Source: Promethearchaeota archaeon (lineage in GTDB: Archaea; Asgardarchaeota; Lokiarchaeia; Sigyniarchaeales; SOKP01). From it: 33,571 bases of DNA. Below are positions 9,764 to 13,991 of the stretch, in pieces (within the stretch, counting starts at the first letter, position 1; the number at the start of each line of letters is the position of its first letter). The position numbers and the translations under genes were made by a program. Under the pieces are notes generated by a model. It saw nothing but the letters and a program-made list of their open reading frames with translations. It was not told the origin of the DNA and searched no databases. The stretch spans positions 1-33,571 of the forward strand of contig RDOA01000042.1 in the NCBI GenBank assembly GCA_011364925.1. Direction: 5' to 3'.

Positions 9764-11242
9764 ATGAATATAGACGATTTTGAATTAATTTATAAGAATA
9801 ATCGTAAAGAAATAAAAAATAAAACATTAATAAAAACTGAATTGAGTGAATTTCTTGGAGAAAAGAATGTTTCAATAAAAAATGCTGATTTACTTGCTTA
9901 TACAAGAGATTCAAGTCTTATTGCTTTAAATTGGACAATCCAAGGAAAAATTGCAGGCTTACCAGATTTCATTACTTGGCCAGAAACTAAAGAACAGATT
10001 TCCAAGATTTTAAAGCTTGCGAATAAGGAGAAGATTCCTGTAATCCCCTACTCTGAGGGATCTGGAGTTGTTGGAGGATCTATTCCAATTTATGGTGGAA
10101 TCATTATCGATATGAAGAAATTTAATAAAATATTAGAAATAAACGATAAAAACCTCACAGTTACGGCTCAAACAGGGATAAATGGGATGAATTTAGAACG
10201 ATATTTGAATTCTAAAGGTTATACTAGTGGTCATATACCCCAATCGCTTTATACATCTTCTTTGGGTGGGTGGATCGCGCATAGAGCTGCGGGTCAGTTT
10301 TCAACGAAATACGGAAAAATTGAAGATATTGTTATGGGTATGGAGGTTATTTTACCCCTAGGTGAAATTATCAAGTTTAAACCTATTGCGAGAGCGGCTA
10401 CAGGTCCTCAACTTGATAAAATGTTTATAGGAGGGGAAGGTACGTTGGGAATTGTAACAGAAGCAACGTTAAAAATTTGGCCCTATCCAGAAAAAAGAAC
10501 ATTGATCTCTTATTCTTTTCCAACAATAGAAGATTCGTTTAATGCAACGAGAGAAATCCTTAGAGAAAATGTCTATCCCGCAGTGATAAGAATCTATGAT
10601 GTACACGAAACTGACAGGCATTTTTCTGAAGTTGAAAATGCGAAGAAAAGAGTAATGACAGTTTTTGTGTGTGAAGGAAATAAAAAGCTAGTTGATGTAG
10701 AGGAAGCAATAACAAGAGAGATGTGTGAAAAAAATGCGGGGATTAACTGTGGAACTGGTCCTGTGGAGCATTGGTTTGAGACAAGATTTAGAGTAACTGA
10801 AACATCTACTATGTCGCCCTACAAATTAGTGTATGATACGGTTGAAGTTGCCTCGTTATGGGATAGAGCTGCGAGAATCTATCACTCTGTTGTAGAAGCT
10901 ACTGATAGGATTAAAGGAAATTTGTTAATTACTGCTCATGTTTCACATTTTTATGCTAATGGTGTTGGTACTTACTTCACATTTGGTGGCGTACCTCCAA
11001 AAGGAGTGTCTGATCTTGAATTTTACCAAGAGTGTTGGGATTCAATTATTAAAGCTGTTTTAGAAGCGGGTGGTTCTATTGCACATCATCATGGAATAGG
11101 TATTAATCGAGCTCATTGGATGAAAAAAGAATGGGGAACTGCAATAAATGTGATGAAAGATATTAAAAAATTGCTAGATCCTAGTAATATTCTCAATCCT
11201 GGCAAAATTTACGAGGATATATGGAAAGGAGGTGTTGAATAA
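9764..11242 (+). CDS. FAD-binding oxidase/transferase of the GlcD / alkyl-DHAP synthase (VAO) family
   Basis: A 492-residue flavoprotein. Residues about 66-243 form the PCMH-type FAD domain: 'PVIPYSEGSGVVGG', 'SSLGGWIAHRAAG', 'YGKIEDIV' and 'FIGGEGTLGIVTEA'. The C-terminal domain carries a 'HVSHFYANGVGTYFTF' segment (residues 392-407) and 'GSIAHHHGIG' (H441-H443), ending 'LDPSNILNPGKIY'. The HHH triplet and the YFTF tyrosine are hallmarks of alkyldihydroxyacetonephosphate synthase (AGPS), where they take part in catalysis. Simple lactate or glycolate dehydrogenases usually lack them. However, the operon partners (Fe-S/CCG protein, sugar or polyol kinase) are those of an electron-transferring dehydrogenase. 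The reaction is therefore open: AGPS-like ether formation, or oxidation of a polyol phosphate or 2-hydroxyacid. It is the first gene of a three-gene operon. Confidence 0.88.
   Translation: MNIDDFELIYKNNRKEIKNKTLIKTELSEFLGEKNVSIKNADLLAYTRDSSLIALNWTIQGKIAGLPDFITWPETKEQISKILKLANKEKIPVIPYSEGSGVVGGSIPIYGGIIIDMKKFNKILEINDKNLTVTAQTGINGMNLERYLNSKGYTSGHIPQSLYTSSLGGWIAHRAAGQFSTKYGKIEDIVMGMEVILPLGEIIKFKPIARAATGPQLDKMFIGGEGTLGIVTEATLKIWPYPEKRTLISYSFPTIEDSFNATREILRENVYPAVIRIYDVHETDRHFSEVENAKKRVMTVFVCEGNKKLVDVEEAITREMCEKNAGINCGTGPVEHWFETRFRVTETSTMSPYKLVYDTVEVASLWDRAARIYHSVVEATDRIKGNLLITAHVSHFYANGVGTYFTFGGVPPKGVSDLEFYQECWDSIIKAVLEAGGSIAHHHGIGINRAHWMKKEWGTAINVMKDIKKLLDPSNILNPGKIYEDIWKGGVE
11228..11234 (+). 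promoter_or_regulatory. Strong SD of the Fe-S gene
   Basis: GGAGGTG ends eight bases before the ATG at 11243 and lies inside the end of the flavoprotein gene. It matches the archaeal anti-SD (AUCACCUCC) and fixes this start. Confidence 0.7.
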
Positions 11243-12517
11243 ATGGGTGCTTTTGAAACATTGAAAAAGTATAAATGGATGATTCCTCTTCTTAATAAAG
11301 CAGATAGGGACATTAAATCAATACTTATGAAAAACATGCGCTCGAAAGAAAAGAATTTTTACCCAGAAGGAGAATATAAAGCTGATGTAGATAACCTAAT
11401 TAAATGTATGTTATGTCCAAATATGTGTCGATTCGATTGCGGCACACTTCAAGCTTCGCAAACTGAAAGCATGAGTCCCTCGTATAAAGCGAGAATAGGA
11501 TACTATCTAACAATTGGTAAGATTGACCCAACCAAGGAAGAAAATAGTGATTTCATTGACTTTATGTATAAATGCTCCAATGAGGAAAACTGTAAGATTT
11601 GGTGCCCATTTGGATTTTCAGTAGTATCATTATTAGAAACTGTAAGAGACGATTTAAACAGCAAAGGACTTACGCCCGATTATTGTAAAGAACAAATTAA
11701 AAAGTTAGAAGAATCAAACACAATAGAAGGTTATAATATCTACGATACTTACAAAGAACATGGTATTGAAAACATCGAAACCGAAGGGAATGACGATGTG
11801 TTTTATTATATTGGTTGCGAATCGATGAAATTTCCCGATGTAATAAAAGCTAATATTAGTATCCTACAAAAAGCTGGAGTTAAATTTTCAACGAATCTTG
11901 AGAAAAAGGTTTGCTGTGGGGGGCCATCATTTAACATAAGAGATTCTGATACAGCAGAAAAATTTGCTAAAAAAAATCAAGAACTGATTGAATCTACTGG
12001 AGCTAAAATCATTGTATCCGATTGTCCTGGTTGCGTTCTGACACTCACAAAAAGGTATGAAAGTATAGGTATAAAAATAGAGAAAAAAATAATTCACATT
12101 GTAGAATACATCAAACAATTGTTAGAAGAGGGAAAGATAAACCCTACTAAAAATGTACCTGTTGAATTGAAAAAGGTGACAATTCATGATCCATGTCTCA
12201 TAGCCAGAAATTTAAATGATACTGCTTCAATTAGGGCCATACTAGGTAGAATTCAAGATTTAGAAATAGTTGAGCCGATTTATAATAAGGAATATGTCCA
12301 TTGTTGCGGATGGAGCGGTACTGCTCATTGGGCTGACAGAGTACTAGCTATTAAGGAAGCTTCAAATAGAATAGATGAATTACGGGAAACAGGAGCTGAA
12401 GTTTTTGTATCAGCATGTCCTTTGTGTGAATTAGGATTGAATTATGGGATTAACCCAGAAGAGAAAGAAAAGTTTAAAATACTAGATGTATCTGAATTAT
12501 TAGTAAAAAGCCTTTAA
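11243..12517 (+). CDS. Fe-S oxidoreductase with two CCG domains (GlpC/GlcF/HdrB-like)
   Basis: A 424-residue electron-transfer subunit. The N-terminal part has cysteines C55-x2-C58-x3-C62-x3-C66 and C111-x5-C117-x3-C121-P, a ferredoxin-like region with unusual spacing. Two complete CCG (cysteine-rich) domains follow: C192, C224-C225, C261-x2-C264 and C318, C354-C355, C392-x2-C395. In HdrB such domains bind noncubane [4Fe-4S] clusters. There are no membrane spans, so it is soluble or peripherally bound. It starts one base after the stop of the flavoprotein gene, with a strong SD (GGAGGTG, 11228-11234), so the two should be made together. It most likely takes electrons from the flavoprotein, as GlpC does from GlpAB or GlcF from GlcDE; the final acceptor is unknown. 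Confidence 0.9.
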   Translation: MGAFETLKKYKWMIPLLNKADRDIKSILMKNMRSKEKNFYPEGEYKADVDNLIKCMLCPNMCRFDCGTLQASQTESMSPSYKARIGYYLTIGKIDPTKEENSDFIDFMYKCSNEENCKIWCPFGFSVVSLLETVRDDLNSKGLTPDYCKEQIKKLEESNTIEGYNIYDTYKEHGIENIETEGNDDVFYYIGCESMKFPDVIKANISILQKAGVKFSTNLEKKVCCGGPSFNIRDSDTAEKFAKKNQELIESTGAKIIVSDCPGCVLTLTKRYESIGIKIEKKIIHIVEYIKQLLEEGKINPTKNVPVELKKVTIHDPCLIARNLNDTASIRAILGRIQDLEIVEPIYNKEYVHCCGWSGTAHWADRVLAIKEASNRIDELRETGAEVFVSACPLCELGLNYGINPEEKEKFKILDVSELLVKSL

Positions 12518-12524
12518 AGGTGAT
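12516..12524 (+). promoter_or_regulatory. SD of the FGGY kinase gene
   Basis: AAAGGTGAT starts within the upstream stop codon and ends three bases before the ATG at 12528; the core AGGTGAT matches the anti-SD. Confidence 0.6.
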
Positions 12525-12527
12525 AAG

Positions 12528-13991
12528 ATGAGCGATTTAATATGTGTATTTGATGTAGGTACTACTGGAACAAGAACAGTGATCTTCGATAACAATGGAA
12601 AGGAAATAGCCAGAGCTTATGAAGAATATGTAATCCCCTCTCAACCAGTAGGAATCTCGGAGCAAGCCCCTCAAGTTTGGTGGAATGCAATAAAAAATAC
12701 TTCAAATATAGTTATGAAGAGTGGAAAATTCGACCCGAATGATATTGTGGGAATTTCAGCTTCATTTGCTAGGGGAACTACAACACTAATAAATAAAAAT
12801 AGAGAAGTCTTGCACCCAGCATTAACCTGGATGGATGAGAGAGAATTAACTGATGCAAAGGGATTTAACGAAGAGTTAACTTGGAGGAATTCAATTCCGA
12901 AATTGTTATGGTTAAAGAAAAACAAACCAGACTTATTTTCTAAAGCTTTTAAAATTGTTTGTCCCGATTCATATACTTATATGAAGTTATGTGATGAAAT
13001 TGTAACAGATCCAACAAATGCAATCAATGGAATTTTAAATTTAAGAACTCTAAAATTAGATAATGAACTTGCAGAAGCATATGAGATTCCACTAGAATTA
13101 TGGCCTGAGGTACATCGTCCTGGTGAAGTGATTGGTGAATTATCTAACAAGGCAGCGAATGAATTAGGAATTAATAGAAATATTCCTATATTTTTAGGTG
13201 GTGGAGATCAACAATGTGCTTCTTTAGGGCTTGGTGTAATTGAAAATGGAGATGCAAAAACAACAACAGGCACTGGTACTATTGTAGAACTTGTTGTTGA
13301 TGAACCAATAAGAACATCAGGAGAAATACCAATATTCACTTTTCCACATTTGATTGAAGGTAAATGGGTTCTTGAGGGTGTAATGCCTGGTACGGGAACG
13401 ATGTTTCAAACATATGCAAGAAACTTTTCACAATTACAACTGAAAGAATCTGAGGAATTAAGCACAAGTGTTTACGATATATTGACCAAAGAAGCTGAGC
13501 AAGCCCCTCCTGGTAGTAATGGTTTATTGTTCGTTCCTCTCTATATATTTAGGAAAGGAACAATACATGGATTAGGTTGGCACCATGGTAGACCACATTT
13601 TGCCAGAGCGATAATGGAGAGCGCTGCATTATCTGCAAATATGTATTTAGGTATGCTTGAGGCTATAGCAAGAGTAAAAACCACTGAAGTAAAGGTAGAT
13701 GGAGGTGGAATGCATAGCGATTTATGGGGACAAATATTTGCGGATATAATGGATAGGAAAATTTTAATCCCTGAAAATAAAGATGGAGGAGCACTTGGCG
13801 CAGCGATATTAGGCTTTTATGGTGCTAGAACATATAACACAATAAAAGATGCTATTAATAGCATGAGCAGATTTGTCTCTGAGAAGAACCCAATAAAAGA
13901 AAACGTAAAAGCTTATAAGAAACTTGTAAGGCTATTCATGCCTACTGTTCTCGAAACTAATGAAAAGAAAAGAGTTACAAAAGATTTATAG
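12528..13991 (+). CDS. FGGY-family carbohydrate/polyol kinase
   Basis: A 487-residue FGGY kinase with the N-terminal phosphate-1 loop 'FDVGTTGTR', the catalytic-base motif 'GGGDQQCASLG' (D227), the adenosine-side 'GTGTIVE', and the C-terminal 'VDGGGMHSDLWGQI' and 'GGALGAAILG'. It phosphorylates a sugar or polyol with ATP. The GDQQ motif resembles glycerol kinase, but the glycerol-binding Arg-Glu pair of GlpK (usual 'RETT') reads 'ARGTT' here and 'TWMDER' resembles xylulokinase-type enzymes. Substrate is therefore unassigned and naming it glpK would be unsafe. It is the third gene of the operon, ten bases after the Fe-S gene, with an SD (AAAGGTGAT) overlapping the upstream stop codon. The order suggests the kinase product or a derivative is the flavoprotein substrate. 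Confidence 0.9.
   Translation: MSDLICVFDVGTTGTRTVIFDNNGKEIARAYEEYVIPSQPVGISEQAPQVWWNAIKNTSNIVMKSGKFDPNDIVGISASFARGTTTLINKNREVLHPALTWMDERELTDAKGFNEELTWRNSIPKLLWLKKNKPDLFSKAFKIVCPDSYTYMKLCDEIVTDPTNAINGILNLRTLKLDNELAEAYEIPLELWPEVHRPGEVIGELSNKAANELGINRNIPIFLGGGDQQCASLGLGVIENGDAKTTTGTGTIVELVVDEPIRTSGEIPIFTFPHLIEGKWVLEGVMPGTGTMFQTYARNFSQLQLKESEELSTSVYDILTKEAEQAPPGSNGLLFVPLYIFRKGTIHGLGWHHGRPHFARAIMESAALSANMYLGMLEAIARVKTTEVKVDGGGMHSDLWGQIFADIMDRKILIPENKDGGALGAAILGFYGARTYNTIKDAINSMSRFVSEKNPIKENVKAYKKLVRLFMPTVLETNEKKRVTKDL

Follow-up and report, generated by a model that had tools for sequence, protein, structure and literature searches.

We analyzed a 33,571-nucleotide stretch of DNA (hereafter the window; contig RDOA01000042.1 of assembly GCA_011364925.1, Promethearchaeota archaeon) from a lokiarchaeal genome of 3.92 Mb. 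Three open reading frames (ORFs) on the + strand, together spanning positions 9764-13991, encode a flavoprotein of the alkyl-dihydroxyacetone phosphate (alkyl-DHAP) synthase, or AGPS, clade, an iron-sulfur (Fe-S) electron carrier, and a kinase, listed below with the evidence for each assignment.

9764 to 11242, + strand: gene 1, AGPS-clade FAD-dependent dehydrogenase (the flavoprotein), 492 amino acids (Pfam, PDB matches, AlphaFold/Foldseek, tree)
11243 to 12517, + strand: gene 2, Fe-S electron carrier (the CCG protein, after its two CCG domains), 424 amino acids (Pfam, CCG twice)
12528 to 13991, + strand: gene 3, FGGY kinase, 487 amino acids (Pfam, FGGY_N and FGGY_C)

Genes 1 and 2 are separated by 0 bases and genes 2 and 3 by 10 bases, with Shine-Dalgarno-like sites identified upstream of gene 2 (AAAGGAGGTG) and gene 3 (AAAGGTGAT), in agreement with the tightly packed operon with internal ribosome-binding sites described in a first-pass annotation made from the sequence alone. 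Inspection at gene 1 revealed no clear Shine-Dalgarno site, and promoter and terminator scans gave signal at or below chance. The Pfam domains also bear out that annotation's assignment of a VAO-family rather than GlpA-like dehydrogenase (FAD_binding_4 and FAD-oxidase_C) beside a CCG Fe-S protein and an FGGY kinase. No GlpA-type dehydrogenase was identified in the operon, and the best GlpA match of the genome lies elsewhere, scoring 110 bits against a cut-off of 553.

The gene 1 product is a VAO-family flavoprotein within the AGPS clade. Its nearest PDB sequences were the AGPS of Dictyostelium (2uuu, E 2.5e-65) and guinea pig (4bby, E 5e-59), followed by D-lactate dehydrogenase (9e-43) and LctD (2e-38). 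The AlphaFold model had a mean pLDDT of 88.8, and AGPS ranked first in Foldseek (TMq 0.82-0.85) with D-lactate dehydrogenase next; because their TM-scores are close, fold alone cannot discriminate between the two. In the maximum-likelihood tree, the clade carrying a His-His-His (HHH) motif was split from the GlcD-like outgroup with support of 100/100, and no placement among lactate or glycolate dehydrogenases was seen. The flavoprotein fell inside a 21-row archaeal clade (99/97), and eukaryotic AGPS, represented by partial sequences from PDB alignments, joined Streptomyces and Sulfitobacter proteins (100/99) and not the Asgard proteins. The bacterial side of this tree is thinly sampled, its members being drawn from plasmid records and E. 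coli only. An Asgard origin of eukaryotic AGPS was considered and rejected, as the tree unites eukaryotic AGPS with bacterial sequences. A second AGPS-like paralogue, 35% identical and accompanied by a CCG gene, was identified in some Loki genomes (L114 5952-8654 and L113); the copy from genome G128 (L114) is interrupted by a TAG codon and lies near FGGY and GlpA-like genes, and the L113 copy lacks the HHH motif.

Active-site positions of the flavoprotein were compared with those of AGPS; the Dictyostelium and guinea-pig equivalences come from our own alignments, allowing for chain and author numberings that differ by three residues.

10241 to 10243, + strand: Q160, in place of AGPS D303 (alignments)
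10805 to 10807, + strand: S348, in place of the catalytic arginine of AGPS, R447 in Dictyostelium and R515 in guinea pig (alignments)
10973 to 10975, + strand: Y404, equivalent to guinea-pig Tyr578 and Dictyostelium Tyr508 (HMMER alignment)
11084 to 11092, + strand: HHH triplet, residues 441-443, equivalent to guinea-pig His615-617 (HMMER alignment)

The HHH triplet and the tyrosine of a YFTF motif, both pointed out in the first-pass annotation, thus align with AGPS, and Y404, H441, and H443 were invariant across a 28-sequence alignment, with H442 sometimes replaced by Gln. Further, R276 corresponds to the AGPS catalytic Arg352/419 and is kept. According to a review, mutagenesis of the Dictyostelium enzyme (ADPS) identified R352, Y508, and R447 as important (PMC3509576); the equivalents of R352 and Y508 are kept in the flavoprotein, and that of R447 is lost. 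The YxRD motif holding this arginine was missing from every Asgard member tested, although the S348 loop is modeled with low confidence (pLDDT <50). The flavoprotein also lacks an AGPS insert of about 23 residues after Arg419: the span from R276 to G305 measures 30 residues, compared with 25-32 in nearly all other clade members and 52-54 in guinea-pig and Dictyostelium AGPS and 1 Streptomyces protein (L181). Overall, the flavoprotein resembles AGPS (4BBY, 2UUU) in fold (TMq 0.76-0.85), FAD domain, and the retained Tyr, Arg, and His residues, and differs from it in having neither Arg515/Arg447, Asp303, the insert, nor the N-terminal extension, and in having kinase and CCG partners. The HHH triplet and Y404 cannot be taken as a mark of AGPS activity, because E. 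coli YgcU carries both. Since R447/R515, D303, and the insert are lost and eukaryotic AGPS groups elsewhere, the flavoprotein is, judged from its sequence, probably not an alkyl-DHAP synthase.

The Streptomyces protein (L181 6770-8467) is AGPS-like with D303, YxRD, and the insert, groups with Dictyostelium AGPS, and has no kinase seen nearby; its sequence makes it a candidate true bacterial AGPS.

In the CCG protein, Pfam identified CCG in two stretches, with Fer4_8 below threshold, and the two sequence motifs are as follows.

11816 to 12034, + strand: first CCG motif, C192, C224/225, C261, and C264
12194 to 12427, + strand: second CCG motif, C318, C354/355, C392, and C395

The 7 N-terminal and 10 CCG-motif cysteines were kept in 21-22 of 22 relatives, and the closest NCBIfam models (TfrB, LdhH, and GlpC) each scored far below cut-off. 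The second N-terminal cluster motif (residues 111-121) reads CSNEENCKIWCP in most Lokis and CxxCxxCxxxCP in other Asgard relatives, so that one cluster ligand of the Loki protein seems to have been lost or replaced by Glu. We found 48 CCG-domain matches in the host genome, many adjoining FAD_binding_4-type genes (contigs C11, C24, C50, C67, C91, and C105), and such FAD-CCG gene pairs are unusually numerous there. A CCG gene lies no more than about 3 kb from each of at least 8 further superfamily FAD genes, an arrangement like that of GlcD-GlcF, which indicates that this pairing is general in the genome.

The three-gene operon is conserved across Asgard archaea. In all 45 Loki-type loci where the downstream sequence reached 1.3 kb or more, a CCG gene adjoined the AGPS-like gene, and a kinase lay within 5.5 kb in 30 of the 33 where it reached 4.3 kb or more, so the breakdown of linkage that would have spoken against a functional unit was not seen. 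These loci are related, and the counts are thus not independent trials; still, the kinase linkage exceeds chance, as one of the 7 FGGY genes would be expected to fall this close to any particular gene in only about 2% of cases. A thirty-first linked locus, L040, is likely, since it appears to be the locus of genome G100, whose GlpK-like gene sits about 6.3 kb downstream. Among other archaeal loci, 35 of 38 had a CCG gene beside the AGPS-like gene, and beyond Asgard, only 4 other sampled archaeal genomes had a match at E<=1e-60. Two distinct kinase lines occupy the equivalent place next to AGPS-CCG: in L036, a GlpK-like gene takes the position of the window FGGY gene with the downstream genes unchanged, and both types are present in L011 and L012. 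GlpK-like genes (418-461 bits) were identified near AGPS-CCG in Loki genomes G098, G154, G096, G148, G153, G139, G095, and G100, with a fragment of one in G156. Thorarchaeia-like and other Asgard loci had the gene order FGGY-GlpA-GlpB-GlpC-AGPS-CCG.

The FGGY kinase of the window matched NCBIfam models for XylB (245 bits), AI-2 kinase (214 bits), and GlpK (TIGR01311, 168.5 bits; cut-off 590), all under cut-off. GlpK contacts glycerol through R83, E84, W103, Y135, and D245; in the window kinase, the equivalents of R83, W103, and the Asp of the GDQQ motif (D245) are kept, and those of E84 and Y135 are not. Both lines of AGPS-linked archaeal kinases likewise keep the Arg, Trp, and Asp and lose Y135, with a small or other residue at the E84 position apart from rare exceptions (L014/L017). 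The full set of glycerol residues was found in a kinase of the host genome that is not linked to the operon (L135, contig C16). Because the linked kinases are without E84 and Y135, their substrate, as far as these residues tell, is probably glycerol-like yet not plain glycerol. In view of these active-site residues, we rejected the reading of the GlpK-like neighbors as proof of a glycerol substrate.

Relatives of the flavoprotein were also identified in bacteria. In E. coli (L134 4898-17050), ygcU, present in 5069 of 5426 genomes and encoding a member of the HHH clade, lies with the FGGY kinase gene ygcE, the ETF genes ygcRQ, a G3P (sn-glycerol-3-phosphate)-responsive antiterminator gene (ygcP), and ygcON; no paper on the function of the ygc genes was found in the literature searched, which covered few subscription journals. 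This system resembles the window operon in joining an AGPS-clade flavoprotein with an FGGY kinase and dedicated electron carriers, and differs from it in having ETF in place of CCG, extra SDR and MFS transporter genes, a separate clade, and a kinase with RCC and SDK motifs where the window type has RG and GDQQ. AGPS-like, FGGY, and ETF genes occur together in Ilyobacter and Enterococcus as well; kinase-GlpD-AGPS-GlpP runs were identified in Cupriavidus and Arthrobacter, and GlpD, AGPS-like, and kinase genes in Novosphingobium, Microbacterium, and Paracoccus jeotgali. In loci with ETF, the AGPS-like protein is the likely electron donor, being the sole evident substrate-side flavin dehydrogenase there.

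Two plasmid loci had further neighbors. In P. jeotgali (L184 5160-14981), the ends of successive GlpD-like, AGPS-like, and FGGY genes overlap, and the run continues with an aldehyde dehydrogenase, 2 enoyl-CoA hydratase-type genes, an iron-containing alcohol dehydrogenase, and a thioesterase, which looks like an operon for glyceryl-ether or alkylglycerol catabolism. In Methylobacterium nodulans (L177 7034-10649), the AGPS-like gene adjoins PdxA and a four-carbon acid sugar kinase, which suggests a C4 sugar-acid phosphate as the substrate of that branch.

We therefore propose, with a probability of roughly 0.58, that the operon is a kinase and oxidation module for a phosphorylated glycerol-like polyol, with electrons passing to the CCG carrier. 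The FGGY kinase would phosphorylate a small polyol similar to glycerol, or a derivative of glycerol, with plain glycerol itself being improbable; the flavoprotein would then take 2 electrons from the phosphorylated product at a site formed by Tyr404, His441-443, and FAD, which it has in common with AGPS, and the reduced FAD would pass them to the CCG protein, from which they may reach a heterodisulfide-, quinone-, or ferredoxin-type acceptor. The CCG, ETF, GlpABC, GlpD, GlpK-like, and FGGY genes flanking relatives in archaea and bacteria support such a module, as do the other FAD-CCG pairs of the host genome and the absence from the flavoprotein of an Arg that is reported to matter for non-redox exchange in AGPS. 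They favor the polyol-phosphate route to a GlpC/HdrB-like carrier raised in the first-pass annotation; we infer the net oxidation in it, mainly because ETF loci without GlpA or GlpD make the AGPS-like protein the obvious donor. Several observations weigh against this proposal. A GlpA/GlpD-type dehydrogenase is also present in Thorarchaeia and several bacteria, and since it is co-present, the carriers there could serve it, with the AGPS-like protein redox-neutral. Some Asgard loci (L052/L093, L053, L090, and L092) have AGPS-CCG with no kinase within about 5 kb, no CCG gene lay beside the bacterial relatives examined, and no activity report for any kinase-linked member was found in the literature searched.

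The operon could alternatively serve plain anaerobic glycerol use, the kinase making G3P and AGPS-CCG acting as a non-orthologous G3P dehydrogenase that yields DHAP or, in a variant with sn-glycerol-1-phosphate, DHAP or glyceraldehyde phosphate. Many Loki genomes hold a GlpK-like gene in the AGPS locus, strong GlpA (497-534 bits) occurs, within the Loki family, in genus g9 alone, genome G096 (100% complete) has AGPS-CCG with a GlpK-like gene and no GlpA at E 1e-40, and GlpP-type antiterminators lie beside bacterial relatives. The window operon also shares the logic of kinase, flavoprotein, and CCG carrier with GlpABC and GlpK, and GlpABC physically adjoins AGPS-CCG in Thorarchaeia-like genomes. 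However, the window dehydrogenase is of the VAO and not the GlpA family, both types of AGPS-linked kinase depart from GlpK at E84 (with the exceptions given above) and Y135, and the glycerol kinase with the full residue set sits away from the AGPS locus. Most Loki genomes, moreover, carry a weaker GlpA-like gene (that of 110 bits in the host genome), so G3P oxidation need not depend on the AGPS-like protein. We thus consider plain glycerol use unlikely: the kinase, flavoprotein, and CCG logic that the first-pass annotation saw mirrored in GlpK, GlpA, and GlpC stands, and the direct analogy to glycerol is doubtful because the linked kinases miss 2 glycerol-binding residues. Cleavage of glycerol ethers or other substituted glycerols, in which the kinase would phosphorylate the substituted glycerol and the AGPS-like enzyme would cut the C1-O bond, whether by oxidation involving the CCG carrier or by reversed AGPS chemistry after C2 oxidation of the GlpA/GlpD type, appears quite unlikely. 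Going by the lost residues, the linked kinases seem to have more open pockets than GlpK, GlpA/GlpD and AGPS-like genes co-occur in Thorarchaeia, L151, Cupriavidus, Arthrobacter, Novosphingobium, and Paracoccus, and the accessory enzymes of L184 match the needs of fatty-alcohol disposal; yet the AGPS Arg and insert are lacking, FGGY kinases usually act on small soluble polyols, and neither the E. coli locus nor the window locus has GlpA or GlpD. A broader and highly speculative idea, to which we give little credence, is that the AGPS clade was ancestrally catabolic, its FGGY-fed members cleaving or oxidizing C1 of phosphorylated glycerol ethers or substituted glycerols, such as those in archaeal membrane debris, and giving up the electrons to CCG or ETF carriers, and that AGPS came to make ether lipids in a later reversal within a bacterial-eukaryotic branch.

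It is very unlikely that the flavoprotein is a true alkyl-DHAP synthase with a part in Loki ether-lipid synthesis, and the ether-lipid-type enzyme that the first-pass annotation had offered as its other option is disfavored. AGPS is the nearest solved relative by sequence and fold, and Y404, HHH, and R276 are retained, but the catalytic Arg, D303, and the insert are absent, all 3 of which are found in the kinase-unlinked Streptomyces protein; the Asgard proteins do not form a sister group of eukaryotic AGPS, and a redox-neutral exchange offers no obvious use for kinase and Fe-S partners. The flavoprotein is even less likely to be an ordinary GlcD/LctD-type dehydrogenase acting on D-lactate, glycolate, or a D-2-hydroxyacid. 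It belongs to the same superfamily and matches TIGR00387 (GlcD), and GlcD-GlcF and LctD-LctBC likewise join a VAO-family dehydrogenase to a CCG or ETF partner. The match, however, is 228 bits, well under the cut-off of 568, the flavoprotein has SHFYANG...YF and AHHHG where the GlcD group has its GDGNxH and GEHG motifs, the clade is separate, and kinase linkage, which those systems lack, would be unexpected.

We found no paper describing an AGPS-CCG-FGGY module in the literature searched, within the coverage given above. A lipid analysis of Loki- and Thorarchaeota discusses G1PDH, GlpK, and GlpAD, and an AGPS-like enzyme is not named in its passages on glycerol, ether, and FAD (PMC6737245); the G1PDH profile (PF13685) gave 4 weak matches in the host genome. 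Archaeal and bacterial genes of the AGPS clade may be read as alkyl-DHAP synthase, and this label is probably misleading for such archaeal genes, because the operon most likely oxidizes a phosphorylated glycerol-like compound and is not lipid-making. The distinction matters most for a 2024 reconstruction of the last universal common ancestor (LUCA), in which alkyldihydroxyacetonephosphate synthase was among the ether/ester lipid synthesis enzymes recovered (PMC11383801). If the clade members are kinase-fed dehydrogenases and the LUCA gene set includes such proteins, they would be no evidence for ancestral ether-lipid synthesis, and an archaeal AGPS-clade gene would have no bearing on Asgard lipid stereochemistry. 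The module is an archaeal parallel to the near-universal, uncharacterized ygcU/ygcE locus of E. coli, and its function is therefore open to testing in E. coli.

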